DNA from: a bacterium
Lineage (GTDB): Bacteria; Hinthialibacterota; Hinthialibacteria; H5-UNCL2
NCBI GenBank assembly: GCA_015075175.1
Contig: JABTUV010000001.1
Location: 372,001 to 436,000 of the forward strand
Reading direction: 5' to 3'
Length of the DNA stretch: 64,000 bases
In this document: positions 22,179 to 49,021 of the stretch, in pieces
Layout: every line of letters starts with the position of its first letter
How positions within the stretch are numbered: the first letter of the stretch is position 1
The notes under the pieces: generated by a model
The model's input: only the letters and a program-made list of their open reading frames with translations
Told to the model about the DNA's origin: nothing
Databases searched by the model: none
Translations under genes and position numbers: made by a program

Positions 22179-22934
22179 GTGACTTGGTCGAGCCGACGCG
22201 CTTCAGCGGAATCTCACGTGGTCTCAAGACTGACGGCGGGATTCATGCTGGTGGGGTTGTGCGCGTTGTGCGCGGCGCAGGAGAACGGTCACGGGGTGCG
22301 CTGGACTTCCAGCTCCGCGGAGACCTGGTCGAGCGGCGCCGATGTCAACGCGCGCGGCCAGCGTTCGCGCCTGGCGGGCGCCTTCGACGCCAGCTTGGAC
22401 GCGGTCAGCGGGAATACGGTCAAGGGATACCTGGGCCTTCTGGAGGCGGTGCAAGGCCTACCGCCGACAGCCACTCCCACTCCTACTTACACCGCGACTC
22501 CCACGCCGACGCCGACGCTCACTCCAACCACGACTCCCACGTTTACGCCGACACCCACGCCTACGGATACCTCCACGACCCCGCCGACCCCGAGCGCCAC
22601 GGCCACCGGCACGCCCACCCCGACGGCTACGGCCACGCCGACTCCCACGTGGACGGCGACGCCCACCGCCTCCCCCACGCCGACGTGGACGTCTATCGAA
22701 ACGCCCACGGAGACGCCGACTGCTACGTCGACGCCGTCACCTTCCGACACTTCAACGCCGACCGAAACGCCGACAGCGACGCCGACCGCGTCCCCGACGC
22801 CCCACCCGCACTACCGGAAGTGGTTCGAGGTCGCGTTGCTCTGGCACTCGCAGACGGGTGGCGGGTCGTACGATCTGGTCACGGACGGGCGGATCGACGA
22901 GAAGGACCTCTTGATGTTGATGGAGGAGTGGTAG
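22179..22934 (+). CDS. Exported Pro/Thr-linker protein with C-terminal dockerin-like calcium loop
   Basis: GTG 22179 has GGAGGAG 8-9 nt upstream; a GTG at 22218 is the other candidate. The leader ([14 protein letters not shown]) is followed by about 60 residues without known family, then about 105 residues of Thr-Pro-rich linker ([15 protein letters not shown] type). The last 40 residues form a module: [15 protein letters not shown], then the 12-residue EF-hand-like loop [12 protein letters not shown], then LLMLMEEW at the very end. The same layout ends the proteins at 23431-25545 and 48029-49021. The stretch is GC- and Pro-codon-biased and its antisense frame is also open, an artefact of the repeat. 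Confidence 0.75.
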
Positions 22935-22985
22935 TCAGGCTGGAGAATATCGCATTGGTCGGGCCCGTCGGTCCGCCGCGGCGCA

Positions 22986-23351
22986 CGTATCGAGGGATAG
23001 CGAGAGGACGGCTTGGATGCGAGCACGTCGGTGGCAAGCCGCCGTGCCTCTCGATACGGCCCCGATGTTACTTCTTGCCTCTCATGAAAGTACCTCGGCG
23101 GGGCCTACTCGAGGACACGGCTTACACTTTCGCGTTCGGGTCCTGAAGAAAAAGTATTCACGTGTAGTTCCGGAAAGAAAAAAACCGAGTCCTCAAGGCG
23201 TGCCCCAACTAGCCCAAAGGGCGTATCGAGGGGTAGCGGCGCGCCGGGCAACACGCCTGAGACGCGGGCTCTGACTTCGCGCCGCGCCTTGTCCCGACTG
23301 GGCTGAAGGCCGTATCGAGGGATAGCGAGAGGACGACATGGACGCGAGCAC
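22986..23351. repeat. Dispersed repeat block with CGTATCGAGGGATAGCGAG direct repeats
   Basis: CGTATCGAGGGATAGCGAGA with GGACG following occurs at 22986 and at 23311, each continuing TGGAYGCGAGCACG, and a diverged copy (CGTATCGAGGGGTAGCGG) lies at 23223. Between them are the CCTCTCGATACG and CTACTCGAGGACACGG parts shared with 5630-5775. The 22935-23430 gap has no gene apart from these repeats; short ORFs there are chance. Confidence 0.75.
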
Positions 23352-23430
23352 GGTGCCTTCCAACTTGCCTCGGTTTTTATCCTCTACGGGTGAGGCGAAG
23401 CCTCGTAAGGGACTGTCCCAACCGCAGGTG

Positions 23431-25545
23431 TTATTGCACCAGGAACCTGTCGAGCACGATTAACAGGTCGTGGGCATCCACCAGGCCGCTGCCGTCCGCG
23501 TCCGAGGATGGGGAAAAACCCGTCTCCTTGAGCCAGTCCAGGCTGAAACGGAGAAGCCCATGCCCCCGCGGCGAGGGAACGGGCGTGGGACTGGCCGTCG
23601 GCGTCGGCGTGGCCGCAGGTGTGAGCGTTTCCGTGGCTGTCGGCGTGGCCGTGGGCGTGGGTGTCGGCGCAGGCGTGGCGTCCCCCACGATGGCCGCAAT
23701 GTCGATCAGGTACATCTGCCGCCCGGTTCCGCCGTGCGGAGAGTCGAAGACGACCTTGGTTCCGTCCGGACTGATGCGTGGATGCGTGTCGCAGCGCCAC
23801 TCGCCGTCATAGCCTGCGGGTGAGGGGAAATGCCCCAGCGGCAACATGCGCCGGGTCGGCACGTGAAACAGATACACGTGCTGAATGCGCCCACTGCCCT
23901 GCGGATACGTGTCCGTGACGATCCACTCGCCGTCGCGGAAATACGTCTGATGTCCATTGGGGGCGTTCCAGAGCACTTCGTAGGCGCCGCTGTTGTCGTC
24001 GGCGAAAAGTCGATAGCTGCTCGTCCATACGAGGATGTGGGCCGGATCGCGCCAATGGTAATGCGAGGGGTTGTAGCAGATGAAGCGGATGTCCGTGCCG
24101 TCGGCTTTGGCGGTCAGCATCCGGCCGGCTCCCCAACCGCGATCCAGAAAGAGAAAGCGCGAGCCGTCCGGACTCCACTGGATGTGGTTGATGTAATGCA
24201 TGTCGCTGTCGCTCTGCCCGGAGTAAGGAATGGCCGCGATGTCCGCCATCGAAAAGAGCATCTTGAACTCGCCCGTGTCCAGATCGAGGGAGTAGACGCC
24301 GAAGTCGTCGGGCGCCTTGATATTACGATTGGGATCGGCGATGCCGTTATAGCCGTAGCCGGCGCGCGCCCAGCCGATGCGGCGGAAATCTGCAGCGAGA
24401 GCGGTCTTGCCGTCAGGACTCACGTGGTCGATGGGCCAATCCAGCGTGCGTTCCGCGCCCGTCCAGACGTTCTTGACGCGCGTGATGTAATGCGTCCCAT
24501 CAGAACTGCGGTCGTTCCAAAGCACCTCGCTGTCCGAACCGGGACGCCATTGCAGCCGGCATCCCTGCTGCCAGCACCACGCGGTCGTTGTGCCCAGCGG
24601 AATCCAGGCGTCGCTCGCCAACAAATCGATCATGCCCACGACGACCACGTCGTCGGCGCGGGGGCTGCGGTTCTCGAACTCGACTTCCATGCCCAGCACA
24701 TAGCGTCCTGAGGGATGGAACTGGGCGATGTCATAGTAAGAGAACCAGTGGTACTTGGGACCACTCGTAATGGCGCGCACAGGTGGGAGCGTCCAATCCG
24801 GTGGATACATGGCTTCCTCGAAGGGGATGGGGTCGGGCGGAGGAGCGTCGCCGAGACCGACGCCCTCCGCCCATGCGCGAATCTCCGTGGCATTGAGCAC
24901 GCGGTCGTAGAAGAGCACGTCGCCGAGGACGGCGTTGGCGTTGGTGCCGCCATCCGAGCGCGCCCCCAGCATGGGGATTTCGCTGCTGTCGGTGATTTTG
25001 GCCGGTATCGACGCGCTGCTTGAGAGGACGAGGCCGCCGTTGATGTACACGCTCATGCGCTGCGAGGGCTGAAAGGTCACGGTCAGCGCGTAATCCTTGC
25101 CGGCTTGCACCTGGAAGGCCGTGTCCAGTTGCTTGGCGGAGCCGGTAAAGTTGCCGTCGGGACTGACTACCCAGTAGAGAACGCCGGTCGGTTGGACGCC
25201 CAGTTCATAGCAGCGCGCGCCGGCGGCGAGGCGATAGCGGGACACGAGCGCCTGCTGGCCGCCGGTAAGCGACTTGACGCGTGCGACCATGCAGATCGTG
25301 AGCGGGCCGGTGAAGCGGAAGTCGGTGGTATCGGTAACGCTGCGCAGGTCCAGTCGCGTACTGGACGGGGAAACAAAATCCAGGCCGAAGCCGTCACGGA
25401 AGGCAACCACGGCAGGGGCGTGGGCGCCGGTCGGCGGCGATTCCGGCGACCATTGCAGATGGACGACGGGCGAGGCGGGTACGCTCGCCTCGGCCAAGAT
25501 CGTGCAGATGAGCGTCAACAAGGTCAATATCTGGAGATACCGCAT
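23431..25545 (-). CDS. Exported LamG + TolB-like propeller protein with PT linker and dockerin-like tail
   Basis: The 704-residue protein starts with a leader (YLQILTLLTLICTILAEASV). Residues about 45-225 look like a concanavalin/LamG domain (GPLTICMVARVKSLTGGQQA, MSVYINGGLVLSSS, GDVLFYDRVLNATEIRAW). Residues about 270-610 form a TolB/WD40-type propeller with recurring ISPDGTKVVF and WSPDGSRFLFLDRG. Then comes a Thr-Pro linker and a final module LLRFSLDWLKETGFSP plus the calcium-type loop DADGSGLVDAHD and LLIVLDRFLVQ. It is alone on its strand and no catalytic residues can be named. A role as a secreted binding or glycan-processing protein is inference. Confidence 0.8.
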   Translation of the reverse strand: MRYLQILTLLTLICTILAEASVPASPVVHLQWSPESPPTGAHAPAVVAFRDGFGLDFVSPSSTRLDLRSVTDTTDFRFTGPLTICMVARVKSLTGGQQALVSRYRLAAGARCYELGVQPTGVLYWVVSPDGNFTGSAKQLDTAFQVQAGKDYALTVTFQPSQRMSVYINGGLVLSSSASIPAKITDSSEIPMLGARSDGGTNANAVLGDVLFYDRVLNATEIRAWAEGVGLGDAPPPDPIPFEEAMYPPDWTLPPVRAITSGPKYHWFSYYDIAQFHPSGRYVLGMEVEFENRSPRADDVVVVGMIDLLASDAWIPLGTTTAWCWQQGCRLQWRPGSDSEVLWNDRSSDGTHYITRVKNVWTGAERTLDWPIDHVSPDGKTALAADFRRIGWARAGYGYNGIADPNRNIKAPDDFGVYSLDLDTGEFKMLFSMADIAAIPYSGQSDSDMHYINHIQWSPDGSRFLFLDRGWGAGRMLTAKADGTDIRFICYNPSHYHWRDPAHILVWTSSYRLFADDNSGAYEVLWNAPNGHQTYFRDGEWIVTDTYPQGSGRIQHVYLFHVPTRRMLPLGHFPSPAGYDGEWRCDTHPRISPDGTKVVFDSPHGGTGRQMYLIDIAAIVGDATPAPTPTPTATPTATETLTPAATPTPTASPTPVPSPRGHGLLRFSLDWLKETGFSPSSDADGSGLVDAHDLLIVLDRFLVQ

Positions 25546-25730
25546 CGAGGGAATTCTCTTTCGTAGTTGTGCAGCGTGCTGCGCCGGCCCCCGGCAATGC
25601 CGATGGTACGGGTCATGTTAACGTTATCAGGAACTTCGTCAAGGTGCTTGAACGCTGTCCGCGGAGCGACTCGCTAGCGGATTCCATAACCCGTTTTGGT
25701 ATATTGGCGGCACTCGGTTAGAAAACGCCC

Positions 25731-25958
25731 ATGACCAAGTCGCTCTTTTCCCCCGACTACGACCGTTTCCGGCGCCTCCTAGTCGACGCCCGCCGGCGGC
25801 GCGGCGTCACGCAGGCCGCGCTGGCGGCGGCCATCGGGCGGCATCAATCGTACGTCTCAAAATATGAGCGCGGGGAACGGCGGCTGGATGTCATCGAGTT
25901 TCTGGAGGTAGCGAAAGCGCTTGAAGTAGATCCCGCCGATATTCTCAGGCGATTGTAA
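25731..25958 (+). CDS. XRE-family HTH protein, likely restriction-modification controller
   Basis: A 75-residue Cro/CI-type DNA-binding protein with the HTH at TQAALAAAIGRHQSYVSKYE and then GERRLDVIEFLEVAKAL. It starts at ATG 25731 and ends 6 nt before the endonuclease gene, the arrangement of C (controller) proteins that delay restriction enzyme expression. An 8-bp palindrome CGCTAGCG (25672-25679) lies about 52 nt upstream and could be an operator, but no classical C-box is visible. An HTH-containing antitoxin or immunity repressor is the alternative. Confidence 0.75.
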   Translation: MTKSLFSPDYDRFRRLLVDARRRRGVTQAALAAAIGRHQSYVSKYERGERRLDVIEFLEVAKALEVDPADILRRL

Positions 25959-25964
25959 GCGCCC

Positions 25965-27289: not shown

Positions 27290-27370
27290 GGTAAAATGAA
27301 TACTACTCCACCCTGCTCTCGTTGTCCAGCAGCAGCGTGCCGTAGGTGTGCCGTAGGCCGGTGGCGACCG

Positions 27371-28012: not shown

Positions 28013-28394
28013 GAGGGTCTCCTCTCCCGGGGGGATTGGAGTAACGTTAATGCAATGAGGCATAAACAGGTATTGTTAACGTTAGCAGACGTTTCCTACC
28101 ATGTTCCCGACGGCGCTGTCAAGGACAAAACCGCCCCGAAAACCGTCGGGTTGACGCGGGAGGCGGAGGGTACGACGCGGGTGTGAGGTATGGGCTTTTC
28201 GCCGACCACGGGGCCAGCCCTCGGTCGCCCCGCGCCCGCCATCCCGCACGAGCAAGCCGCCCTTGGCGCCGCCAGCGGTTGCGGAACGTCCGCGTCCGGA
28301 CGGGAGTCGTTCTTTCTCTTGCGCTTTGTGGGGGAAAGTGCCAATCTATTGTCGTCGCGCCGCGTTATAAACAGTGCGACGGAACATTACGTTT

Positions 28395-28752: not shown

Positions 28753-28755
28753 TTT

Positions 28756-29605: not shown

Positions 29606-29749
29606 AGCGTGAGCAATGCGGCCTAACCCATCCGTAACAGTAAAGCCTCGGTAAATTAACCGCGAACTCATCCTGAATTCATCGGCAAAGCCTACCAACA
29701 CACCGTCCAATCATACCGGAACATGACACGGCACAAGGAGGTAAGCTTC

Positions 29750-31417
29750 GTGAAGCTCTTGCAGATCGCTCTCTGGTCCGCTGGAATCGCGGGTGTATTG
29801 GCGGGCGCCCAGGCGTCCGCGGCGGAAATCCTCGTGGCGGACGACATCGCCACGTCTACGACCTGGACGGCCGACAACGTCTACAACCTGCAGAAACAGA
29901 TTTTCGTCCTCCCCGGCGCCACGCTGACGGTCTCAGCCGGCACGCTGGTGCGAAGCACCGCCGGCGTCGGCGGGAGCCTGGCGGTGTGCCGCGGCGCGCG
30001 CATCTACGTAAACGGCACCAAGGACAAACCGGTTGTCATGACCTCGTCCGCCGACACCCTGACCGCGTGGCACGAGGGCGCCAACGAGTGGGGCAACCTG
30101 ACCATCATGGGCAATGCCCTTATCTCGGGTTCGCACTATCAAGGCGTGGCCCAGACCTACCAAGACGGCGCGACCGCGCCGGTCCACACCAACACCAAGC
30201 TGCCGGACGGCCTGAACAAGCGGCAGATGGAGGGTTTGGTCGCCGCTTTTCCCGGCGATCCCAAGGTGCTGTACGGCGGCGCCGATGACGACGACGACAG
30301 CGGCTCCATCACCTACGTATCGATACGCTACGGAGGCAAGGTCCTCGGCCTCAATAACGAGTTGAACGGTCTAGCGTTGGGCGGGGTCGGCCGGGAGACC
30401 GACATTCATCACGTGGAAATCATGAACGGAGTGGACGACGGCATCGAAATCTGGGGCGGCACGGTCAACCTGAAGTACGTCAGCATCTGGAACGTGGGGG
30501 ACGACAGCTTCGACATCGATCAGGGCTGGCGCGGCAAGGCGCAGTTCGGCCTGATCGTGCAGGGCTACAGCGCGGATGCGCCGCAGGGCTCGGGCGTGGG
30601 CGACAACTGCTTTGAGACGGACGGGGCGGAGGATTCCGACGCCCAACCGGTGACGACGGCGACGTTCTACAACTTCACCGTCGTCGGCCAGCCGATCGAC
30701 GCCGACCATGGCACGGCCTGGCGCGACAACGCGCGAGTGCAATATCGCAACTGCATCTTCATGGAGCTGGGCGAGCGGCTGGTCGGTTTCGACAACTCCG
30801 ACGGCGACGGCGGGAGCGGCTACGGCTACAACGGAACGCTCTCCTGGGCCGAGACGTGGCGGACCGACTACACCCACACCTCCCCCGTCAACGCGGGGAA
30901 CTGGACGCCGGGCGCCTTCAACGATCCCGCGCGGATGTACACGGTGCAGACCTCGGGCAAGCTGGCCGAGATTACCGACAGCGTGTTCTACGACAACCGC
31001 CACGCGCAGGCCTATACCGAGGCGATCGCGCGCGGAGTCTTGGCGGCCACCGCCCACAACGTCATCGCCGCCACGCGCCCCATCCAGGGGTTGACCCGTG
31101 GGGCGCAGGTCACTCGGGGCGGAAAGCGGATGCTGCCCGTCACCTTCCTCAATCCCTGCGCGGCCGGCGAAGCCCTCGTCAGCGTGGGCAAGGCCCCCGA
31201 CGACGGTTTCTTCACACCCGTCGCCTATCGCGGCGCCTTCAGCCCCCACTACAACTGGCTGGAGGGTTGGACGGCCGTGGATGCCTACGGCATGACCGAC
31301 ACCTCGATGAACGGCGCCAGCCCGGTCGCCGGCCTGACCAGCGACCTCAACGGCGACAGCGCCGTCGACCACGAAGACGCTTTGATCTTCATGAACCACT
31401 GGCATCTGGGAAAGTAG
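29750..31417 (+). CDS. Exported beta-structure protein with C-terminal dockerin-like loop
   Basis: GTG 29750 has AAGGAGG 9 nt upstream and opens a signal peptide (LLQIALWSAGIAGVLAGAQA), so it is preferred to ATG 29723. The 555-residue protein is glycine- and aspartate-rich and reads as a parallel beta-helix-like fold with repeated segments: YVSIRYGGKVLGLNNELNG, HHVEIMNGVDDGIEIWGG, LKYVSIWNVGDDSFDIDQG. Such proteins occur beside TonB-dependent receptors in many lineages. The end is DLNGDSAVDHEDALIFMNHW, a single dockerin/EF-hand-like loop with no Thr-Pro linker here. It is the first gene before the receptor-TonB set and may be its surface partner or cargo. Confidence 0.75.
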   Translation: MKLLQIALWSAGIAGVLAGAQASAAEILVADDIATSTTWTADNVYNLQKQIFVLPGATLTVSAGTLVRSTAGVGGSLAVCRGARIYVNGTKDKPVVMTSSADTLTAWHEGANEWGNLTIMGNALISGSHYQGVAQTYQDGATAPVHTNTKLPDGLNKRQMEGLVAAFPGDPKVLYGGADDDDDSGSITYVSIRYGGKVLGLNNELNGLALGGVGRETDIHHVEIMNGVDDGIEIWGGTVNLKYVSIWNVGDDSFDIDQGWRGKAQFGLIVQGYSADAPQGSGVGDNCFETDGAEDSDAQPVTTATFYNFTVVGQPIDADHGTAWRDNARVQYRNCIFMELGERLVGFDNSDGDGGSGYGYNGTLSWAETWRTDYTHTSPVNAGNWTPGAFNDPARMYTVQTSGKLAEITDSVFYDNRHAQAYTEAIARGVLAATAHNVIAATRPIQGLTRGAQVTRGGKRMLPVTFLNPCAAGEALVSVGKAPDDGFFTPVAYRGAFSPHYNWLEGWTAVDAYGMTDTSMNGASPVAGLTSDLNGDSAVDHEDALIFMNHWHLGK

Positions 31418-31527
31418 GCACGGCGTGACAAGAGGACAAGAGACGCGGCGGCGAAGGAACGATGTGCGCAGGTCGGTCCACGAGCAGGGCGCCTGCGCAA
31501 GGACGACAGGTTGAGAGCGTGATTGAC

Positions 31528-32725
31528 ATGCGGTGTTTCGTGCCGGTCCTGGCGGTGTTGGCGCCGATGTTTGTGGTCTCCGGCTGCGAACGCCCGGCGG
31601 CCCGCGCCGACGTGGCGGCCGGCCGGGCGCTGCCCGAGCGGTCGGTAGCGGCGTTCCGGCTGGAGCTGCTCGAGCTGGCCTTTGAGGCCGCCTCCTCAAT
31701 TCCGCAGGAGCCGCACGTCAAGGACCGTTCGCGGGTGCAGCAGGGGGTGGTCGAAGCGTACCTCGTGCTCGATCAGCCCAGCCGCGCCCTGGCCGCCGCG
31801 GGCCGGATCGAGAATTGGCGCCGCAACCTGTGCTACGCCAGTCTGGCGTGCTATTGGGCCGAGCGGGGCGCCGAGCTGGAGGCGCGGCGCTGCCTGGCGC
31901 TGGTCGGCCCGTTGGACCGAGAGGACCAGCAATGGCGGCGCGACCGCGTCTTGGCGCGCATGGCGCAGGCGCGGGCTAGGCTCGACGATGCTGGCCGGAC
32001 CGGCGAGTCGGCGTCCGCAGACAGTTCCGGGAGAGGGGCGCGAACTCCAATCGAAGGCCCGTTGGACGCGAATCAGGCCGCCTGGGACGCACCGCCCGCC
32101 GGCGGCGACTTCGAGCTGCTGAACTCTGCGCTGCGCGGCGCCACGCAGCTCTGCGATCAGGTTTATGATGATCCCGACCGGCGCGCTGCGGTGCAGGAGA
32201 GAATCCGGGCGTCGTGGGGGAGGCTCCCCGTGATCATGCGGTTGGAGCTTCTTTTCGAGTTGGCCCGGATCGCGCGGGATCATGGCGACCTGGCGGCCTC
32301 GCTGACGCTTATCCATGAAGCTCGCGCCCTATTTGACGGGTGCGCCTGGTCGCTGGAGGACCGCCTGCCGCCGGCGGCGCGGCTGGTCGTTCTGCGGGGC
32401 CAAGCGGGCGAGCGCGAGGCGGCGCTGGCGGAGGCCGACGCCCTCTTCAGGCTCTTCGCGCAGAACCGCCGTGAAATCCCGGACATCTACCGCGCGCGGG
32501 CGTTGCGGCCGCTGGCCGAGGCGTACTTCTTACTGGGCGCGACCGACGCCGCTCTGCTCGTGTTTCGACACGCGATTGAGGAGGAGCGGCCAATCCAACG
32601 CGAGGCCGCGCGCCGAGGACCTGGCGGCCACCTGTACCGCCATGGCGCGGCTCGGCGTCGAACCCGACGGCCGGCTCTGGGCGCGCATCAGGCAAATTCG
32701 GAGCGAACTGCGTCAGCCATGGTAG
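31528..32725 (+). CDS. TPR-type lipoprotein, frameshifted near 32600
   Basis: ATG 31528 opens a lipoprotein leader ending VVSGC (Cys about residue 18). The 400-residue protein is built of helix pairs (AFRLELLELAFEAASSIP, VQQGVVEAYLVLDQPSRALAA, ARKALARI-like), resembling TPR repeats that coordinate protein complexes. The frame runs without stop into the TonB-dependent receptor gene, giving an apparent 1421-residue fusion. A slip between about 32590 and 32615 places the true C-terminus AEDLAATCTAMARLGVEPDG and RIRQIRSELRQPW in the +1 frame, stopping at 32725, 7 nt inside the receptor gene start (ATGGTAG). It is therefore a separate gene. Confidence 0.65.
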
Positions 32726-35700
32726 GACGGCGCCGGGCTGTACTTGCGCTTGCCGTGACCGTCTGTTGCACAATAGGTGCGGCATCCGCCCAAGAAGCCG
32801 GAGGCATCCGCGGCACGGTTTACGACAAGGACTTCGATGCGCCTTTGCCCGGTGCGGAGGTCGCCATCGTGGAGACAGGGAACAAGGTGAGTGCGAACGA
32901 CCAGGGTCAGTATAGTTTTGGCGATCTGCCCGCCGGAACCTACACCCTGATCTTCTCCAAAGGGGGTTACACGCGGCAGGTGCGGGCGGGCGTGGTCGTC
33001 TCCCCCGGCCGGGTAGCCGAGGTGGACGTGCGGCTGGCCGGCGATATTACCGAGATGGACGAGTTCATCGTGGAGGAGGTCCGATTTGACGGCAGCACCG
33101 AAGCGGGCCTCATGCAATTGCGGTTGGACAGCCCGGCCCTCGTGGACTTCATCAGCGCCGACCTCTTGAGCCGGGCGGGCGCCGGCGATGCCGCCGGGGC
33201 GCTTCGCCACGTGGCCGGCGCCAGCATCCAGGACGGCAAGTACGCGGTCATCCGGGGGTTGCCCGACCGTTACGTCAACTCCCAGATGAACGGCGTGCGC
33301 CTTCCCACCGCGGACGCCGACAAGCGCGCCGTCCAGCTCGACCAGTTCCCCGCCGCCGTCATCGAGAGTATCCGCGTCACCAAAACCTTCACGCCCGACC
33401 AGCAGGGCGACGCCTCCGGCGGGGCGGTTGACATCGTCCTGAAGGGCGTTCCCGAAGAGACGGTATTCTCGCTCAGCAGCCAGATCGGCATGAATACCCG
33501 CGTGACCGGCAAGAGTGGTTTTCTTTCCTACGACGGGGGAGGCGTGAACTACTGGGGCAGGGAGGAACGCGACATTCCCCACGAGCTCTTGGGCCGGAGC
33601 TGGGACGGGGCGGTAGGCGTTGCCGAGGACGACGCGCCCACCGACTACAAGTGGTCGCTGGCGGCGGGCGGCAAGCGCGAGATCGACGGCCTCTTGGGCC
33701 GGCTGTTCCGGGTCGGCGGCTTCGCCAGCCTTTTCTACGAGCGCGACAGCTCGTTTTTCGAGGAGGGCATGGACGACCAGTACTGGGTCGAGACGCCCGG
33801 CGGCCGCATGACGCCGCAGTATGTTCAGGGCACGCCCAGTTCAGGCGAATTCAAGACGCAGCTCTTCGACGTGACCCAGGGCGGGCAGGAAGTGAAGTGG
33901 GGCGGACTGACGACCGTGGGCCTGGAGACCGATCTCCACCGGCTCGCCCTGCTCTACATGTACACGCGCAGCACCGAAGACGTGGCTACGCTCGCCGAGG
34001 ATACGCGCGGCAAGGCGTTTTACTTCCCCGGCTACAACCCGGCGGACCCCCGTGACCCCGGCAACCAGGAGCGCGACGCCGCCCCCTATCTGCGTACGGA
34101 AACGCTGGCCTACTCCGAGCGCACCACCTCCACGCTGCAACTCTCCGGCCGCCACACGCTGCCCGATCCCAAGCTCAAGCTCGGCGCCTTCATCACCTCG
34201 AGGGAACCCCAGCTTGAGTGGGTGCTGTCGCACAGCGAGTCCGGGCTTTACCAGCCCGACAAGCGCCAGTTCGGCTCGCTGTGGTGGGCGGAGTCGTACG
34301 ATCCGGGGTTTCCTCCCCTCCTGCCGCCATCCACCGACCCTGCCGTGCATCGCCCCTTCAAGCCGGCGGCCAACTTCACGCTGGGCAACGTGCAGCGGGT
34401 CTGGAAGGACATCTTGGAAAAGAGCGACCAGTTTGCGCTCAATGCCCGGCTCCCCTTCGTCCAGTGGAGCGGCGAGGAGGGATTTCTGAAGTCGGGGTTC
34501 TTCCGCGACGAGGTGGTGCGCGCGTACGATCAGGACTCGTTCAGCACCTTCAACGACAACAGCGCGCGCTACGAGGGACCCTGGGAAGACCGCTGGAGCC
34601 GCCATTTCCCCGGGGAACACCAGCCCATCACCGCGGCGGAGATCGACGTCGACTACGAGGGGGAACAGACGCTCACCGCCTGGTACGTGATGGGCGACCT
34701 GCCGCTCACAAGCAAGCTCAAGCTGATCGGCGGAGTCCGCTTCGAGAAGACGCAACTCGGCATCCTCAACGATCCCGAGAGCGAAGTGATCTGGATTCCA
34801 CCCGGCGCGGGCGGGCCGGTGAGTCTGCAACCGGGCGACGCCGACGTGGCCTTCGAGCAGTGCGACGCGCTGCCCTCGTTGGCGCTCGTCTTCACGCCCG
34901 TCCCGCCGGTGAAACTGCGCGCGTCCTACAGCGAGACGGTCGCGCGCCAGACCTTCAAGGAGCTCTCCCCCATCCAGCAGCAGGAGTTTCTGGGGGGCGA
35001 CGTGTTCATCGGCAACCCCGAGCTGGGCATGAGCGCGGTGAAAAACTACGACGTGAGGCTCGACTACGCGCCCTTTGACGGCAGCCTGGCGTCGGTTTCG
35101 TATTTCCGCAAGGAGATCAGGGGTCCCATCGAGTACGTGCAACGCAACGCCGGCTTTACCTACACCACCCCGGTGAACTATCCGGAGGGCAGGCTGGCAG
35201 GCTTTGAGTTCGAGCTGCGGCAGGATTTCGGTCGCCTGTGGGAGACGTTGGACGGGCTATCGCTGGGAGCCAACGCCACGCTGATCGACTCCGAGGTGAC
35301 GCTTCCGGATGAGGAGGCGGCGCAGTTCGACCAGCCCAACATCCGGGCGCCCATGAAGACGCGCGACATGACCAACGCGCCGGACCATCTCTTCAACTTC
35401 TTTGCCACCTGCGACTTGGAGCGCTGGGGGCTCAGGGGCGCGGAGGCCGCCGTGTTCTATTCCATCCGGGGAGACACCCTCGTGGCCGGCGCCGGCCAGT
35501 CGGGCGGGCGCTTCGTGCCCAGCGTGTACGAGACCCAGTACGGCACACTCAACGTGAGCCTGACGCAGAAGCTCGGGGACACCTGGAAATTGAAGTTCCA
35601 GGCCAAGAACCTGACCGATCCCAAGATCGAGACGGTCTACCGCTCCGAATACGTCGGCGACGACGTGCTCAAGACCTCGCACCGCAAGGGCATGGAGTTC

Positions 35701-35727
35701 TCGCTGAGTTTCAGCGCGTCGTTTTGA
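32719..35727 (+). CDS. TonB-dependent outer-membrane receptor
   Basis: This protein (about 1002 residues) imports a ligand across the outer membrane with TonB energy. Signal peptide to about residue 24, then a carboxypeptidase-regulatory-like beta domain (EAGGIRGTVYDKDFDAPLPG), a possible TonB box (DEFIVEEV), a plug domain (LLSRAGAGDAAGALRHVAGA, then IRGLPDRYVNSQMNGVRLP, then DQQGDASGGAVDIVLKG) and a long 22-strand barrel ending in Phe (SLSFSASF). This layout is that of Bacteroidota/PVC-type TonB-dependent transducers for complex carbohydrates, vitamins or metals; the ligand is unknown. It overlaps the TPR lipoprotein gene by 7 nt and heads the TonB operon. Confidence 0.92.
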   Translation: MVGRRRAVLALAVTVCCTIGAASAQEAGGIRGTVYDKDFDAPLPGAEVAIVETGNKVSANDQGQYSFGDLPAGTYTLIFSKGGYTRQVRAGVVVSPGRVAEVDVRLAGDITEMDEFIVEEVRFDGSTEAGLMQLRLDSPALVDFISADLLSRAGAGDAAGALRHVAGASIQDGKYAVIRGLPDRYVNSQMNGVRLPTADADKRAVQLDQFPAAVIESIRVTKTFTPDQQGDASGGAVDIVLKGVPEETVFSLSSQIGMNTRVTGKSGFLSYDGGGVNYWGREERDIPHELLGRSWDGAVGVAEDDAPTDYKWSLAAGGKREIDGLLGRLFRVGGFASLFYERDSSFFEEGMDDQYWVETPGGRMTPQYVQGTPSSGEFKTQLFDVTQGGQEVKWGGLTTVGLETDLHRLALLYMYTRSTEDVATLAEDTRGKAFYFPGYNPADPRDPGNQERDAAPYLRTETLAYSERTTSTLQLSGRHTLPDPKLKLGAFITSREPQLEWVLSHSESGLYQPDKRQFGSLWWAESYDPGFPPLLPPSTDPAVHRPFKPAANFTLGNVQRVWKDILEKSDQFALNARLPFVQWSGEEGFLKSGFFRDEVVRAYDQDSFSTFNDNSARYEGPWEDRWSRHFPGEHQPITAAEIDVDYEGEQTLTAWYVMGDLPLTSKLKLIGGVRFEKTQLGILNDPESEVIWIPPGAGGPVSLQPGDADVAFEQCDALPSLALVFTPVPPVKLRASYSETVARQTFKELSPIQQQEFLGGDVFIGNPELGMSAVKNYDVRLDYAPFDGSLASVSYFRKEIRGPIEYVQRNAGFTYTTPVNYPEGRLAGFEFELRQDFGRLWETLDGLSLGANATLIDSEVTLPDEEAAQFDQPNIRAPMKTRDMTNAPDHLFNFFATCDLERWGLRGAEAAVFYSIRGDTLVAGAGQSGGRFVPSVYETQYGTLNVSLTQKLGDTWKLKFQAKNLTDPKIETVYRSEYVGDDVLKTSHRKGMEFSLSFSASF

Positions 35728-41652: not shown

Positions 41653-41662
41653 GCCTCCAGGC

Positions 41663-41752: not shown

Positions 41753-41765
41753 CACGGTCCCTCGC

Positions 41766-41870: not shown

Positions 41871-42214
41871 ACCGGCTCCGTGAGGAATGTCCGCGGCTTC
41901 CGGAGAGGAGTAGACTGGGCAACGGCCATGGTATTCAGGACGCGAGGCGCCACACGACCTGGGTCTCGAAAACACTTATTGACTCGTAGCTTGGCTTGGA
42001 TTATATGAAGCTAAGCATTTGATCCCTGACGGATGTCAATACCGGTCGCAGTTTTGGTGGGGTTGTTCGTGTGAGCGAACTCCTGCACTTGAGGGTATGT
42101 GACTGGGGACTGAACCATGCCCAAGCCACCGAGCCACGGCATGTTGCAAGCCGGTTGCGACAAAGTCCCAATGACCGCAGGATGCCGTTCCGCGCGCGAA
42201 GGAGGCTGAATACC

Positions 42215-42841
42215 ATGAACATTCGAGGACGCTTTGGGCGGTCGGCCTCTGCATTCGCGGTCCTCTTGGCGCTAGGACTGTTCCGAGCGGGCAGCAGCGC
42301 GCAGGAGAGGGCGCCCGGATACCCCGACTTCGATGGCGACGGGGTTGTTTCCTCGGAAGACTTGGTCCGGTTCATGATGTACTGGCATTTCCAAGTTATC
42401 CTGGACCACGACGGCGAGCTGCGAGTGCAGCCTCCCGCCACACCCCCGCCCGGCGTGACTCCCACGCCCACCCCGGTCGTCGAGCGCATCGCCGCCATCC
42501 CCATCCACGACGCGACCACGGCGGGCGCCGCTTACGGTCAATGCACCGATTGCCACGGAAGGCGCTACAACGAGATCGCTCCGTTTGTCGGCGACGCCAC
42601 GACGGGTCGCGTGTGGTCGGCTCATTCGTGGATGCTGCACATCTACCCGGGATCCGAAGGCGGGGTCAACGACGCGGTCTGCAAGAGCTGCCATAAGAAC
42701 GTGGATCTGCTCAACAACGGGGGCGGCGCGCTGCGCAAGAAAGTCGCCGTCGATCAGCCCGGCTTTCTCGGGCTCTCCTGTTCCAGCGCGCCCTGTCATG
42801 GCGCCAGTGGCTCAAAGCCGTTTTACCTGATCAACAAGTGA
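42215..42841 (+). CDS. Exported triheme c-type cytochrome with N-terminal dockerin-like loop
   Basis: ATG 42215 has AAGGAGG 9-10 nt upstream. A signal peptide (SAFAVLLALGLFRAGSSAQ) is followed by YPDFDGDGVVSSEDLVRFMM, a single EF-hand-like loop at the N-terminus (DFDGDGVVSSED), then a Pro-rich linker (PPATPPPGVTPTPTP), then the heme region. Hemes: CTDCH, CKSCH, and CSSAPCH, which has four residues between the cysteines (CX4CH) and is atypical. The 208-residue protein is likely periplasmic or cell-surface and probably feeds or receives electrons from the Mo enzyme encoded next, whose start is 17 nt away. No NrfD/PsrC-type membrane subunit follows. Confidence 0.85.
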   Translation: MNIRGRFGRSASAFAVLLALGLFRAGSSAQERAPGYPDFDGDGVVSSEDLVRFMMYWHFQVILDHDGELRVQPPATPPPGVTPTPTPVVERIAAIPIHDATTAGAAYGQCTDCHGRRYNEIAPFVGDATTGRVWSAHSWMLHIYPGSEGGVNDAVCKSCHKNVDLLNNGGGALRKKVAVDQPGFLGLSCSSAPCHGASGSKPFYLINK

Positions 42842-42858
42842 GGACGGAGGACGAGGCC

Positions 42859-45831
42859 ATGCCGGTCGAATCTGGAGTTCCCGCGGGCGGCATCACGCGC
42901 CGCGCGTTTCTGAAGTGGGGGGCGGGCGCGAGCGCGGGACTAGCCGCCGGTTCGCTGTTCTTTGTGCCCAGTCGCAGCCACGCGGCTACTTACGGAAACC
43001 CCGTCCCCGTCGAGACCGACGCGGCGGTCTCCATCAAGTATTCAGTCTGCCTGATGTGCCATTCCAACTGCGGCATCCGCGTCAAGCTCAACGACGTGGG
43101 CCGCGTCGTCAAGATCGACGGCAATCCCTACCATCCCAATGGAACCGACTCGCCGCTGCCGTACTCGACGGACCCACACAGCGAGACGGCCCGCCGGGCG
43201 GCGGGAAGCGTCTGCGCTAAGTCCCAATCGGCGATCGAGACGCTCTATAACCCGTACCGCCTCAAGCATCCGCTCAAGCGGGTCGGGCGCCGGGGTGAAG
43301 GCAAGTGGAAGCGCATCAGCTGGGACGAGGCGATCCGCGAGATCGCCTCGCGGCTGGCGCCCATCCGCGACCTCTCCGCGCCTATCCATCCGCAGGCGCC
43401 GGAGCTGGGCCCCAAGGCCAATGGCCTGGTGTTCACGGGAGGCCGCAACCAGCACGGGCAGAAGGAGTTCACCGATCGGTTTTTCGGCAACTGCTTTGGT
43501 ACCGTCAATAAGCGGCACGACCATACCAGCATCTGTGAAACCAGCCATCACGTGGCCTTCGCCTACATGCTGGACAAAGACAAGAACCATCTCAAACCGG
43601 ACTTGGAACATTGCGAGTACGTCATCTATTTCGGGACCAATCCCTACGAGGCGGGATTTCCGATGGTTCCCCTTGCGCGCAAGACGCAGAACATGCGCAC
43701 GCGCGCGGGCAACCCGGGAATCATGGTGGTGGTGGATCCGCGGCTCTCGCGCACGGCGGGCAAGGCGGACGTATGGCTGCCGATCAAGCCCGGTGCGGAC
43801 GGAGCCTTGGCGCTGGCCCTGGGCCGCCGCATCCTCGAACAGGGGACCTATAATGCGGCTTTTCTCGCCTGGACCTCCACGGCGCACGCCAAGAGCAACG
43901 GCGAGACCATCGGTTCGGATGCCACGTGGCTGGTCAACCTGACTACCGGCTCTTTTTTGTCGCCGGCGCAAGCGGGACTGGGAGGACCGGCGGGCGCGCG
44001 CGTCGTAATCCGGCAGGGAGGCGCCGTCTCCGGAGACGCCACGGCGGACGCCCGCACCAACGACGTCGAGGCTCGCGGGGAACTTTTCGTCGACGCCGTC
44101 GTCAACGGCATTCCCGTCAAGTCCACACTTCAACTCTATCGCGACAGCTGCTTCAGCCACTCGCTTGCGGAATGGGCGGACATCTGTGGATTGGACGAGA
44201 GTCGGATCACGAGCGTGGCCGACGGTTTTGCCGCGCACGGCCGGCGCGCCGCCGCCGAGTTCTACCGCGGAGCCTGCCAGCACACCAACGGCACCTACTC
44301 CGGCATGGCCATCATCGCCCTCAACGGGCTGGTCGGCAACGTCAACTGGAGGGGCGGCATGGCCGGCGGCGGCAGCCACTACCATGAGATGGGCGAGGCC
44401 AAAGCCGGCACGTTCTACGATCTGCGCAGCTCCGTTCGCAACGGCGTCTCTGCCGGCGGCGTCCAGATCACGCGCGTCGGCGCCAGGTATGAAACCAGCA
44501 GTGAATACGCGGGCAAACCCGAGGGAGCGAAGTATCCCGCCGCGCGCCCCTGGTTCCCCTTCGCCAAGTATGGAAACTATCAGGAATTGTTCCCCTCCAT
44601 CGGCGCGCAGTATCCCTATCCCTGCCAGGCGCTGATCCTTTACTGGAACAACGCCGCCTACAGCACCCCCGGCCACCGCGACATTGCACGCCAGGTCCTC
44701 ACCGACGAAAGCAAGCTGCCCTTCTTCGTCGCCATCGACGTGGAGTTCGGTGAAACCTCGTCGTTGGCCGACATCCTGCTTCCCGACGTCACATTCTTGG
44801 AACAGTGGATGACGCCCCACGTGGCGCCGACCATGCTCACCACCATCAGCGGCATCCGGCAGCCGGTGGTGGGAACCATCAATGGCACGCCGGTGCACCA
44901 ACTGGCGGCCATGCCCGCCCACGCCGTCTATCGCAGTATCTATCCCGACTGCCGCCAAATGATCGACATGCTGATCGAAATCGGCAAGGCCCTGGGACTT
45001 CCAGGCGTGGGAGCGGATGCGTTTCCAGAGGAACTCGGCTTTGACGGGACCGACTTCGTGCTCGACAACGCCTGGGATTGGTACAAGCGCATGATCGCCA
45101 ACGTGGCGGGAGAGGCGGGCGCGCTGGTCCCCGGCGGCGCCCAGTTGGAGAAGATCAATTACGTGCTGGCGCGCGGCGGCGTGTTCGATCCCATCACGAG
45201 CGCCTACGACGCCGGCAATCCCAATCTGCTCGCCAAGAAGTTCGACAAGAGCGAGCTGCACTTCTACGTCGAGGATTTCGCAACCGCTCTTGACTCCATG
45301 ACCGGCGCCGGGCTGTCAGGCACGCCCCGATACGAACCCATCAAGACCGCCGGGGACCGACCCCTCGCACACGATCCGTCTTACCCGCTCACGCTGGTAA
45401 CTTACAAGCCGGCTTGGCACGCGCAGGCCAGAACCATCGTGAACAGCCACCTGGTAGCCCTGCAGCCTGAGAACTTCATCGAGATGTCGGCTGAGGACGC
45501 CGCCGCGCGCGGCATCCGCACCGGAGACCTGGTGCGCGTGCGCTCCGGGAGCAGTCCACGCATGGTAGTCGGCCGGGCCCAGGTGTTGGAAGGGATGCGC
45601 CCGGGGGTGGTGGCGATGGCGCACAGCTTCGGACACTGGGAAATGAGTTCCCGGGATCACGTGGTCAACGGGACTCCCACCGGTTACGATCCGGCCCGCG
45701 GGCGCGGCGTACAGGCCAACCTGGTGATGGAGAACGATCCCGACCTGGCCTACAGCGTCTGCCTGCAGGACAAGATCGGCGGAAGCGCCTCGTTTTACGA
45801 CAGCCGCGTCCAAGTCGAGAAAGCCGGTTGA
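42859..45831 (+). CDS. Tat-exported molybdopterin oxidoreductase catalytic subunit (TtrA/PsrA-like)
   Basis: This roughly 990-residue protein carries the twin-arginine leader TRRAFLKWGAGASAG (R14-R15). The [4Fe-4S] motif is CLMCHSNCGIRVKL plus GSVCAKSQ (C64, C67, C71, C119). Bis-MGD-binding blocks include HTSICETSHHVAFAY with candidate Mo ligand C226, IYFGTNPYEAGFP and GIRTGDLVRVRSGSSPRM. The motif pattern is closest to the DMSO-reductase subgroup of tetrathionate, polysulfide and selenate reductases, but the substrate cannot be set from sequence. Downstream lie its ferredoxin subunit and a TorD-type chaperone. An arsenate-type role would fit the nearby ArsR-like gene but is not shown. Confidence 0.88.
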   Translation: MPVESGVPAGGITRRAFLKWGAGASAGLAAGSLFFVPSRSHAATYGNPVPVETDAAVSIKYSVCLMCHSNCGIRVKLNDVGRVVKIDGNPYHPNGTDSPLPYSTDPHSETARRAAGSVCAKSQSAIETLYNPYRLKHPLKRVGRRGEGKWKRISWDEAIREIASRLAPIRDLSAPIHPQAPELGPKANGLVFTGGRNQHGQKEFTDRFFGNCFGTVNKRHDHTSICETSHHVAFAYMLDKDKNHLKPDLEHCEYVIYFGTNPYEAGFPMVPLARKTQNMRTRAGNPGIMVVVDPRLSRTAGKADVWLPIKPGADGALALALGRRILEQGTYNAAFLAWTSTAHAKSNGETIGSDATWLVNLTTGSFLSPAQAGLGGPAGARVVIRQGGAVSGDATADARTNDVEARGELFVDAVVNGIPVKSTLQLYRDSCFSHSLAEWADICGLDESRITSVADGFAAHGRRAAAEFYRGACQHTNGTYSGMAIIALNGLVGNVNWRGGMAGGGSHYHEMGEAKAGTFYDLRSSVRNGVSAGGVQITRVGARYETSSEYAGKPEGAKYPAARPWFPFAKYGNYQELFPSIGAQYPYPCQALILYWNNAAYSTPGHRDIARQVLTDESKLPFFVAIDVEFGETSSLADILLPDVTFLEQWMTPHVAPTMLTTISGIRQPVVGTINGTPVHQLAAMPAHAVYRSIYPDCRQMIDMLIEIGKALGLPGVGADAFPEELGFDGTDFVLDNAWDWYKRMIANVAGEAGALVPGGAQLEKINYVLARGGVFDPITSAYDAGNPNLLAKKFDKSELHFYVEDFATALDSMTGAGLSGTPRYEPIKTAGDRPLAHDPSYPLTLVTYKPAWHAQARTIVNSHLVALQPENFIEMSAEDAAARGIRTGDLVRVRSGSSPRMVVGRAQVLEGMRPGVVAMAHSFGHWEMSSRDHVVNGTPTGYDPARGRGVQANLVMENDPDLAYSVCLQDKIGGSASFYDSRVQVEKAG

Positions 45832-45847
45832 CGAAGGAGAGAACATT

Positions 45848-46396
45848 ATGCCGCAAGTGGGTTGGCGCATGGACCTGCGACGTTGCACCGGCTGCCGGGC
45901 CTGCACCGTCGCCTGCCAGTTTGAAAACCAGACGGGTTCCCAGGTAGCCTTTCGCTTGGTCGTGGACCGCGAGAAGGGCGCTTACCCGCAGGTGCGGCGA
46001 GAGTATATCAGCCTGGCCTGCAACCATTGCGCGCATCCGGCCTGCCGCGCCGCCTGTCCGGTCGGCGCGATCTCCAAGCGCGACGGGGACGGGATCGTCT
46101 TGATCGACCGGGAAAAGTGCATCGGCTGCCGCTCCTGCGAGTGGGCCTGTCCCTACGGCGCCCCCCGCTTCGACCCGGAAGCCCAGAAAATGTCCAAGTG
46201 CACCTTCTGCTTCCACCGCGTTAACGAGGGGCTGCGGCCCGCCTGTGAAATCACGTGCGTGGGCAGAGCCATCCGCGCATTTACTCCCGCCGACCCGGAC
46301 GCCCCCGCCTCGTTCTCGGTCAGCGGGGACTTCCCGGATGATTTCAGCGATGCGCGGCTCACCAACCCGTCGGTCGAGTTTGTGCTGGATTCCTAG
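45848..46396 (+). CDS. Four-cluster [4Fe-4S] electron-transfer subunit
   Basis: The 182-residue protein is a PsrB/DmsB-like subunit. Four cysteine groups are present: CTGCRACTVAC, CNHCAHPACRAACPVG, CIGCRSCEWACPYG and CTFCFHRV...ACEITC, giving 16 cysteines for four clusters. There is no leader, so it would be co-exported with the Tat-carrying catalytic subunit. It lies 17 nt after the catalytic gene and its stop overlaps the next GTG start by one base. A membrane quinol-oxidising partner is not encoded here, so the triheme protein may be the next redox partner. Confidence 0.92.
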   Translation: MPQVGWRMDLRRCTGCRACTVACQFENQTGSQVAFRLVVDREKGAYPQVRREYISLACNHCAHPACRAACPVGAISKRDGDGIVLIDREKCIGCRSCEWACPYGAPRFDPEAQKMSKCTFCFHRVNEGLRPACEITCVGRAIRAFTPADPDAPASFSVSGDFPDDFSDARLTNPSVEFVLDS

Positions 46397-47208
46397 TGCG
46401 CGGCACACCGCGCAACCACGTCCAGGAGCAATCGGCGGAAGGCGCCACGGTACGAGCGATGCGGAGAGACGAACCCCCCGGTTTCCAACCCCGACAGGAT
46501 GTGGCGGCCGTCAGTCTTGCCCGACGGATGGCCCAAGCGCGCGCCCGCTGGTACAGCCTGGCGGGGACCCTGCTCACTTCTCCTCCCACAAGAGAATCGG
46601 TCGAGCAGATGCTTGGCCGAGATTTCCGCCAAGCTGCCGCCGAATGGGCCGGCGCGGACTCTTTGGCGATGCTCGACCAATGGGCGGCGCAGGCGGATTC
46701 GCCGGATGCGCTTTGCGAGGCCTTTGATGAACTTTTCACGGTTCCCGGGCCGAAATACCTGACTCCTTACGAGTCGGTGTTTCGGGATTCCCGCGTGCTG
46801 GAGGATGGCCGGGAGGTTCGCGGCTTGACCTTCGGTCCTTCCACCGACGAGGTGATGCGCTACTATGGTCTGGCTGGAGCGGAGATTTCGGACCGATACG
46901 ACGAGCTGCCGGACCACGTCGGCCTGGAGGTCGAGTTTATGCGCCTCCTTTGCGAGCGGGAGGAGGAGGCGCTCAATCGAGGCGATGTCGCATTAGCCCG
47001 AAGAATCAGGGAAACGCAAGCGGGCTTCCTCAACCGTCACTTGGCGGCCTGGTTGCCGGACCTGGTTGCCCGGGCGAGGGAGCGACTCGCGCACCCGTTT
47101 TACACCTGCCTGTTGGCGCTGCTGCGGGACTTTGCTGACGCCGATCTCCGGTATCTCCAGTCGCTGTGTTCCACGGAGATCGAAGAGGCCGGTCATGGCG
47201 CCGTGTAG
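46396..47208 (+). CDS. TorD/DmsD-family chaperone for the Mo enzyme
   Basis: Cytoplasmic chaperones of this family bind the Tat leader and help insert the Mo cofactor. The protein (up to 270 residues from GTG 46396; ATG 46459 is an alternative) has the family core FDELFTVPGPKYLTPYESVF and the key helix LPDHVGLEVEFMRLLCEREE, then HLAAWLPDLVARARERLAHP. It is the last gene of the Mo-enzyme operon and its stop runs 16 nt into the 3' end of the convergent ccdA gene. Confidence 0.85.
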   Translation: MRGTPRNHVQEQSAEGATVRAMRRDEPPGFQPRQDVAAVSLARRMAQARARWYSLAGTLLTSPPTRESVEQMLGRDFRQAAAEWAGADSLAMLDQWAAQADSPDALCEAFDELFTVPGPKYLTPYESVFRDSRVLEDGREVRGLTFGPSTDEVMRYYGLAGAEISDRYDELPDHVGLEVEFMRLLCEREEEALNRGDVALARRIRETQAGFLNRHLAAWLPDLVARARERLAHPFYTCLLALLRDFADADLRYLQSLCSTEIEEAGHGAV

Positions 47209-47891
47209 ATCAGCCACACTCCGCCCAAGAGCACCAGCACGCCGCACGCCTGCTTGAGCAGCGTCGCCCCCCGGCTGCGCTCGTTCCAGTTCAAGTAGTG
47301 TTGCACTACTTCGGTAAACGTGCCCGCCAAGACGATCACCGAGCAGTGACCCACGCCGTACATCGCCAGGAGCAACACACCGTAGAGGAAGTTACCGGCG
47401 CCCAGCTTGAAGGTAACCGCCAGCATGGGCGCCATGTAGGCGAAGGTGCACGGCCCCAGAGCGATCCCGAACACCAAGCCAAGAATGAACGCCGCCAGCA
47501 TGCCCCGGCGCTTGATGCCGACGTTCCCCGGCCCGGAAAAAGGCATCGGAATCACATCCAGGAGAATCAAACCCACGACAAAGAAGATCACGGCGACGAC
47601 GTAGTTGCCGTAGGTTCCCACGTCGCCCATCATGCGGCCTGCGGCGGCGGTGAGGACGCCGATGGCCGCAATGGTGAGAAGAATCCCGACGGCAAAGAGC
47701 GCACTGATGGAGAACGCGCGTCTGGTCGAAATGCGTCCCTGTTCATCAATGAAACCTACAATCAAGGGAATACTGGCGAGGTGGCAGGGACTTAATAGAA
47801 TGCTCAATACGCCCCAGATAAAAGCCGCCGAGAGCGCAATCAACGGAGAGCCCTCCACGGCGCGCGTCAGGTTGGTGAACAGTTGCTCCAT
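47193..47891 (-). CDS. ccdA: CcdA-type thiol-reducing membrane protein
   Basis: This 232-residue protein has six membrane segments. The two redox cysteines lie in SPCHLASIPLIVG (C36) and GPCTFAYMAPML (C148), the paired Cys-Pro motifs that move reducing power from cytoplasmic thioredoxin to the periplasm, as needed for cytochrome c maturation. Its neighbours (anchored thioredoxin at 49250, small thioredoxin at 50616 and two multiheme proteins) fit that role. It ends 16 nt inside the convergent chaperone gene. A fragment of a second copy lies at 41766-41870. Confidence 0.92.
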   Translation of the reverse strand: MEQLFTNLTRAVEGSPLIALSAAFIWGVLSILLSPCHLASIPLIVGFIDEQGRISTRRAFSISALFAVGILLTIAAIGVLTAAAGRMMGDVGTYGNYVVAVIFFVVGLILLDVIPMPFSGPGNVGIKRRGMLAAFILGLVFGIALGPCTFAYMAPMLAVTFKLGAGNFLYGVLLLAMYGVGHCSVIVLAGTFTEVVQHYLNWNERSRGATLLKQACGVLVLLGGVWLIYTAP

Positions 47892-48028
47892 CGTGTTTCA
47901 ATCCTCTCATCATATCGTGCCGGCGCTGCGAAGCACAACACTTCTCCCTACCGCCCATGATCTCATGTGCGGGACAAACTCGCCGAACTATGCGCGGCGC
48001 CGCTGGGTGGTCTTGACCTTCTTGAGCG
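47892..48028. other. Intergenic gap, no gene seen
   Basis: This stretch between ccdA and the split-Soret-type cytochrome gene shows no ORF or RNA; it must hold the ccdA promoter or a read-through region. Confidence 0.4.
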
Positions 48029-49021
48029 TTACTTGTGCCAGTTCTCGATCAACTTCAAGAGGTCCAGACCGTCGACGCACCCATCGCGATGCAGGTCGCA
48101 CGGACCCGAGTATCCGGTCTTCTGCCAATCCTGGATGAACTCGAACAGCCCCATGTGGTCGTGCGCCAGGGGCGCCGTCGTGGGGGTCGGCGTGGGTGTC
48201 GCCGAAGGCGTCGCGGTCGGCGTCATGGTGACGAAATGCGGCTCGTGACACGAGGTGCAGTTCATCTTGCCCAGCGTGTCATTCATGGCGGTGGAGCCGT
48301 GGCAGCTCATGCAGGACGAAACCACCGGCGCCGGCTGATGCTGAGCGACAAACTGCTGGCGGAAGTAGTCGTTCAGGAGTGCGGTGGCCATGGCGCCGAC
48401 GTCCGCGCAGAGCCGCGCGCAGCGCTCCTTGCGCGCCGCCGAGGTCGCCCCCGCCTGCGCCACCGCACACCAGCGGCTGACCGAGGCGTGGCAAAGCGGC
48501 GAATCGGAGACGCTGGTGGCGATTGCAGTCTGGCCCGACGGCACGTAAATGGGCAACGCCGTCGCCGAGTACCACGCCACCACTTCGTTGATCAGCTTCT
48601 TGGCATCCTCGGTCGGACAGACCAGATTAATGGCGGCGGCGGCGCCGTTCAGCGTTCCGCACACTGATCCCCATCCAGTCACGCCCCCTTCGCCGTAGCG
48701 CATCATGTCCATGGGGAAAACCGTATAAGGAAATCCGTGAACCTCCGCCAGGTTGGCAATGATGGCCTTGAAAGTGCCATAGCAGCAGGCGCCTTCGTAA
48801 AAGCCGGCATGGCCCAGCTGGGCGGAGCGGGCCGCATCCAATTCCGAGTACGGCCAGGGCCAGGGCGGAAGCGTTTCCTCGTGCGGCTGGTCGGCAGCGG
48901 CCCGCAGGCCCGTGCCGGCTACGCCGCCGGTCAGCGCGCTTGCCCCCAACATGCCCAGACTCCGCAGGAAAAGCCGACGCTCTCCCCGCCCCTTGCCTCT
49001 CGGTTCGGGTGTGTCACTCAT
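48029..49021 (-). CDS. Split-Soret-type diheme cytochrome c with PT linker and dockerin-like tail
   Basis: The 330-residue protein has a Tat-type leader (GERRLFLRSLGMLGASALTG). The core resembles split-Soret cytochromes/C_GCAxxG_C_C proteins: GFYEGACCYGTFKAI, FPMDMMRYGEGGVTGWGSVC and GTLNGAAAAINLV. Two hemes are at CMSCH and CTSCH. Then a Thr-Pro linker ([15 protein letters not shown]) and a 40-residue module ending the protein: LFEFIQDWQKTG, the loop DLHRDGCVDGLD, and LLKLIENWHK. It is the third protein with this tail (with 22179 and 23431). It lies on the minus strand with thioredoxins upstream and is probably a periplasmic or surface electron carrier. Confidence 0.8.
   Translation of the reverse strand: MSDTPEPRGKGRGERRLFLRSLGMLGASALTGGVAGTGLRAAADQPHEETLPPWPWPYSELDAARSAQLGHAGFYEGACCYGTFKAIIANLAEVHGFPYTVFPMDMMRYGEGGVTGWGSVCGTLNGAAAAINLVCPTEDAKKLINEVVAWYSATALPIYVPSGQTAIATSVSDSPLCHASVSRWCAVAQAGATSAARKERCARLCADVGAMATALLNDYFRQQFVAQHQPAPVVSSCMSCHGSTAMNDTLGKMNCTSCHEPHFVTMTPTATPSATPTPTPTTAPLAHDHMGLFEFIQDWQKTGYSGPCDLHRDGCVDGLDLLKLIENWHK

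Follow-up and report, generated by a model that had tools for sequence, protein, structure and literature searches.

Five exported proteins in a single window, the term used here for the whole 64,000-nucleotide stretch of DNA analyzed, each carry one calcium-type loop. The locus therefore raises the question of what this small module is, and what it might do on such proteins. An earlier sequence-only reading had proposed that the module is a dockerin-like tag that can be transferred between proteins. All five of the loops on which it drew were found at the positions given, each within an open reading frame.

The first protein, P1 (22179..22934, forward strand), is an exported protein of 251 amino acids made up of a signal, approximately 70 amino acids, a long Thr-Pro linker and a C-terminal one-loop dockerin, with no recognizable domain besides the linker and module. 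Its module (22803..22931) consists of a Trp helix corresponding to helix 1, the calcium loop corresponding to loop 2 (22872-22907) and a helix. P2 (23431..25545, reverse strand) combines LamG-like and propeller-like parts with a Thr-Pro linker and a C-terminal one-loop dockerin. The P2 module (23434..23574) is defined by alignment with P1 and P5, and its loop is DADGSGLVDAHD (23467-23502). P3 (29750..31417, forward strand) is a conserved exported protein with a C-terminal one-loop module at 31334..31414 (loop DLNGDSAVDHED, 31343-31378); a Pfam search with P3 gave no match. P4 (42215..42841, forward strand) is a small c-type cytochrome with two CXXCH motifs and one CX4CH motif. Its one-loop module is N-terminal, directly following the signal peptide and preceding a Pro-Thr linker, and its loop DFDGDGVVSSED (42326-42361) is the weakest member of the set (E=0.004). 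P5 (48029..49021, reverse strand) is a twin-arginine-exported split-Soret cytochrome c, which matches the NCBIfam split-Soret model with E=8.5e-57, yet falls under the curated cut-off. This is followed by a Thr-Pro linker and a C-terminal one-loop dockerin (48032..48166), predicted to form a helix, the loop DLHRDGCVDGLD (48062-48097) and a second helix. The export signals, judged from sequence by eye, are plausible Sec signals for P1 to P4 and a twin-arginine signal for P5. As had been proposed, a Thr-Pro linker lies beside the loop in four of the five proteins, with P3 as the exception. The proposal that the remaining domains are unrelated holds for P2, P4 and P5, while P3 has no Pfam match and P1 no recognizable domain of this kind.

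Two neighboring frames were observed alongside these genes. A protein with repeated head-like motifs (AVVGGGVGNLSGN...), resembling those of trimeric adhesin heads, is encoded at 20217-22142 and stops 37 bases upstream of P1. P1 is almost only linker and module, and could be an adaptor for this protein. Downstream of P3, a single open frame of 1421 amino acids (31462-35727) appears to run from the start of a tetratricopeptide-like lipoprotein into a TonB-dependent receptor with a signal peptide of its own, which begins inside the frame. Either a frameshift in the lipoprotein gene or an assembly error is the probable cause.

P1, P2 and P5 can be aligned along the entire module, which bears out their proposed common layout. 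This runs from the Trp helix through a short turn to the calcium-type loop and a helix, with W, TG, D, G, D and DLL invariant among the three. A signature role for TG was rejected, as it is not conserved across the wider family in alignment A5. In P3 and P4, only the loop and the following helix are present, with no remnant of helix 1. What places these two in the family is thus only the loop and the helix after it.

In alignment A5, helix 1 of the paired dockerins (e.g., DLFELSLHW) lines up with the Trp helix in P1, P2 and P5; these three retain the helix, and loop 1 is deleted. When the A5 profile was compared with the sequences of the PDB, the top matches were cellulosomal dockerins (2y3n, 4.4e-10; 6kg9, 6.7e-9). 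Together, the aligned helix and these best matches indicate a dockerin minus one loop. By homology, then, the window module is a type I dockerin that keeps one of its two calcium loops, the other having been lost, rather than a member of a new EF-hand family. It shares with the type I dockerins of PF00404 the loop-helix repeat and the C-terminal placement after a linker as well as the best PDB matches, and approximately 40 canonical two-loop copies occur in the same genome. Type I dockerins are defined by two calcium-binding loop-helix repeats and the window copies have one loop, for which reason they are named here as a one-loop variant and not as canonical dockerins. The residues of the loop are compatible with a calcium site, as far as sequence alone can tell. 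An AlphaFold2 model of the one-loop module with mediocre scores (pLDDT 71, pTM 0.44) has the loop flanked by helices at residues 28-38 and 54-65, and a Foldseek search of the PDB with this model returned no match.

Standard models capture the family only in part. The Pfam Dockerin_1 model (PF00404) matches 37 of 77 family members scanned and 35 places in the genome. P1 scores 13 bits against it, below the cut-off of 22.9, and for P2 to P5 the Pfam search, run up to E=1, gave no dockerin match. A profile of three window modules (A1) found 95 places in the same genome, many of which are ordinary paired dockerins. A local dockerin profile found 88 reading frames, or approximately 80 once fragments and duplicates were removed. 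This profile was built partly from sequences of the same genome, including P1, P2 and P5, and those three match it by construction; P3 (~5e-6) and P4 (0.002, the weakest) were not part of it and are independent matches.

Counting loops by pattern gave approximately 41 two-loop and 39 one-loop copies in the genome, the split being approximate since a second loop persists in degenerate form in some of the one-loop cases. In a few one-loop cases, it is the second loop that has been lost, with its helix kept. The idea that single loops are peculiar to this window was rejected, given the genome-wide copies and orthologues elsewhere. The single loop had also been put forward as a consistent difference from dockerins, which fails at the genome scale, where about half of the dockerin-like proteins are paired. 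Thr-Pro linkers adjoin many of the modules in the genome. Near-identical dockerin ends were also seen in broken frames or fragments (G000:C48:65577, C2:84229-84640, C7:38876 and C6:62565), and are read as recent duplicates or pseudogenes of tagged genes.

Beyond this genome, the number of dockerin-profile matches is uneven across the class: 47-87 in G000, G002, G005 and G007, 24 in G003 and 5-14 in the other nine genomes, counted with a profile built from G000 that favors that genome. This distribution points to a large expansion in part of the class only.

The behavior of the module across orthologues is that of a discrete unit. P3 has six orthologous copies in five other genomes, at 71-76% identity, and five of these stop before the module; the exception is one of the two G002 copies, which has a one-loop module of its own. 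The nearest relative of P5 (56% identity, G004) ends at the cytochrome domain with no linker or module, as do two more distant relatives, and a scan of contigs with P5 as query found no relative. As orthologues of P3 and P5 are mostly without the module, the tag is acquired or lost whole while the protein body stays conserved, in keeping with the transferable tag first proposed.

A first alternative is that the one-loop modules are decaying dockerins which have lost a repeat and have no binding function. Broken copies do exist in the genome (C48:65577, C2:84229-84640 and C7:38876), the Pfam dockerin model does not recognize P1, P2, P3 or P5 at its cut-off, and the one-loop dockerins of group 2 in Ruminococcus flavefaciens have been called possibly partial and non-functional (PMC2930009). 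Against this, one orthologous protein with FG-GAP repeats, which also has a P-domain where scanned, is shared by three genera of a different family (G001, G004 and G006), and in each of them it still carries a one-loop module at its C-terminus, behind a Thr-Pro linker. These modules are 68-82% identical compared with 40-54% for the proteins overall, and are thus better conserved than the remainder. Synonymous changes are present among the 22 codons compared, a sample too small for a selection test. In two further orthologue groups the retained module is N-terminal and its first loop is reduced, the tagged P3 paralogue in G002 is likewise one-loop, and P1, P2 and P5 retain the loop residues together with both helices. 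The one-loop form is thus stable across genera, which argues against simple decay, and we consider decay an unlikely account of the set. The profile search likewise did not return only paired dockerins or random tails, the outcome that had been named as damaging to the sequence-only reading: about half of the copies are paired, and the one-loop layout is kept across genera.

If the modules are working dockerins, cohesins are the candidate partners. No cohesin (PF00963) was found within the window or near the window genes, as had been noted at the outset, but that statement does not extend to the rest of the genome, where eight cohesin domains exceed the cut-off in seven proteins. Four of these seven proteins also bear a dockerin-like module (C1:748060, C1:1003044, C5:7983 and C34:333724). 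The profile search of related genomes and the search for a co-occurring cohesin gene, both suggested by the earlier reading, were positive throughout: dockerin and cohesin families are both present in 14 of 14 genomes of the class. Among 47 outgroup genomes, treated as independent, cohesins occur in 6 of the 11 that are dockerin-positive versus 3 of the 36 that are dockerin-negative (Fisher p=0.0026). This co-occurrence is an association, and it suggests a candidate partnership.

A locus elsewhere in the genome (L129, G000:C1:994685-997200) contains a cohesin frame followed by a frame with a Thr-Pro linker, a one-loop dockerin and a formylglycine-generating-enzyme-like domain. The two frames are split by a frame change within the Thr-Pro repeat. 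They are possibly a single cohesin-linker-dockerin-enzyme protein, broken by sequencing or by a real frameshift.

It could also be postulated that the module is a calcium-stabilized end cap or spacer, which shields exported proteins that bear linkers and works without a protein partner. Such a cap would tolerate C-terminal, N-terminal and internal positions alike, and the evidence that links dockerins to cohesins comes from sequence. It would also fit the numbers, as approximately 80 dockerins far exceed the eight recognized cohesins. A cap, however, would need no cohesin, whereas cohesins co-occur with dockerins throughout the class, are statistically associated with them in the outgroups and share proteins with them. 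On this evidence, the cap or spacer is judged improbable.

The modules lie near the C-terminus in 60 of the 88 frames, soon after the signal peptide in approximately 10 and internally in the remainder. The C-terminal majority, and the attachment of one tag to unrelated cargo, would be expected of a sorting or secretion signal such as the type IX C-terminal domains or PEP-CTERM tails. The N-terminal and internal copies do not suit such a signal, the sequence is that of a dockerin and not of a known sorting domain, and no exosortase (TIGR02602) was matched in the genome, a result of modest weight given its weak control. A sorting role is very improbable. A search for SprA of the type IX secretion system gave no match in this genome, and none in the control genomes either. 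No S-layer homology anchor (PF00395) was matched in the genome, with the positive controls matching as expected.

That the loops are chance Asp-rich tails is refuted for the set, even with P4 weak on its own (E=0.004). Of 4115 open frames with 100 or more amino acids, 19 contain the loop pattern, versus 0.12 in residue shuffles (11 versus 0.02 for the last 40 amino acids). At E<1e-3 the local profile matches 19 frames, and none in reversed sequences, across 0.81 Mb of the genome taken without bias, the remaining sequence having been taken around profile matches. The module is also conserved in other genomes.

The reading that we favor, and regard as rather likely, is that of dockerin-cohesin assembly outside any cellulosome, in a system where one-loop dockerins are an abundant subtype. 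The evidence for it is dockerin homology, the discrete addition of the module to conserved proteins, some 80 tags, class-wide cohesins and conservation of the one-loop form; from it, we infer docking, a role for calcium, an extracellular location and a cell anchor. Following export, calcium would order the loop and pack the two helices into a plug. This plug would bind the cohesin domain of exported cohesin proteins in a calcium-dependent manner, and the flexible Thr-Pro linker would allow the cargo domain to reach outward. Cohesin proteins with dockerins of their own could chain together, giving multi-protein assemblies. A one-loop dockerin would have a single binding face, the dual binding mode being lost.

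The cargo of the proposed assembly is mixed. Among the 25 commonest Pfam families per set, the 77 tagged proteins include formylglycine-generating-enzyme-like domains (7), beta-helix, FG-GAP and PKD domains, subtilases, one C25 and one M23 peptidase, arylsulfotransferases and cytochromes. The formylglycine-generating-enzyme-like (FGE-sulfatase) domains rank with the most frequently repeated cargo and are also found in another genus (G009, L177). Tagged proteins are mostly non-CAZyme, with few glycoside-hydrolase-like matches among those listed, and so differ, within those same matches, from the mostly plant-polysaccharide enzymes of a cellulosome. A cellulosomal scaffoldin bears many cohesins; here at most two Pfam cohesin domains were seen in any one protein, in an assembly that is 84% complete and with a model that may miss divergent cohesins. 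With c-type cytochromes, peptidases, formylglycine-generating-enzyme-like domains, propellers and beta-helix proteins as cargo, the assembly would not be a cellulosome.

Among the tagged proteins are at least six with no fewer than two CXXCH heme motifs. Besides P4 and P5, the tagged cytochromes are C14:40826 (10 motifs, with an MtrC/MtrF-like domain), C12:201267 (17 motifs), C12:74067 (8 motifs) and C45:130681 (di-heme oxidoreductase family). In the window, P4 and P5 flank an untagged cluster (42838..47208, forward strand) encoding a molybdopterin oxidoreductase, a 4Fe-4S subunit and a TorD-like chaperone. It is tempting to extend the favored reading further, such that the one-loop dockerins would constitute a separate specificity class, binding cohesins through a single face, and in this lineage would clip multiheme cytochromes and the partners of a molybdoenzyme into an extracellular or envelope electron-transfer assembly; this extension is tentative and, at present, more doubtful than probable. 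A contig scan with the molybdoenzyme found distant relatives only (25-43%), in Desulfosporosinus, Balneolales, Bryobacteraceae and others. The related Desulfosporosinus clusters (L091 and L092) have a hydrophobic protein of approximately 390 amino acids, assigned by eye as NrfD-like, between the 4Fe-4S and Mo subunits; no NrfD-type membrane subunit was seen at 42071-47208.

Dockerin and cohesin modules outside cellulosomes were reportedly described in a 2009 study, in all domains of life, and non-cellulosomal dockerin-cohesin systems are an established phenomenon. The planctosome of freshwater Planctomycetes (PMC6461901) and the complex of Ca. Stygibacter (PMC8542988) are genome-inferred examples of such proteins in uncultured bacteria. 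Both were proposed to degrade peptides or polysaccharides with a large anchor or scaffoldin (PMC6461901, PMC8542988), whereas the cargo here is far more mixed, cytochromes included, and no large scaffoldin was seen. Many dockerins and cohesins have also been described in organisms with abundant multiheme cytochromes, namely ANME archaea and the bacteria that partner them (PMC9012536, PMC5244752, PMC10553843), with an adhesion link to cytochromes suggested as a hypothesis (PMC5244752). The available passages of these sources mention binding proteins, S-layer proteins and adhesins rather than dockerin-cytochrome fusions, while six cytochromes are tagged directly here. For the one-loop form, the precedent is group 2 of R. 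flavefaciens FD-1, whose C-terminal dockerins have a single recognizable calcium repeat and were proposed to bind in a single mode (PMC2930009). There, the first repeat is kept, in 5 of 222 dockerins (PMC2930009), whereas here it is mostly the second loop, in about half of the family. A text search of the open literature, in which absence is not proof, found no paper describing dockerin-cytochrome fusions. What is new, as far as these tools reach, is that the one-loop form is abundant and conserved, and that it is fused directly to several cytochromes.

Non-cellulosomal dockerin-cohesin pairs have been noted for years, with their function unsettled. The questions are what such dockerins assemble, and whether one calcium loop suffices for a working dockerin. 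A small one-loop tag could offer a compact alternative for engineered protein assembly. With both families in every genome examined, up to approximately 80 tags in a single genome, a common and conserved one-loop form and cytochromes in the cargo, this class makes a long-standing question testable.
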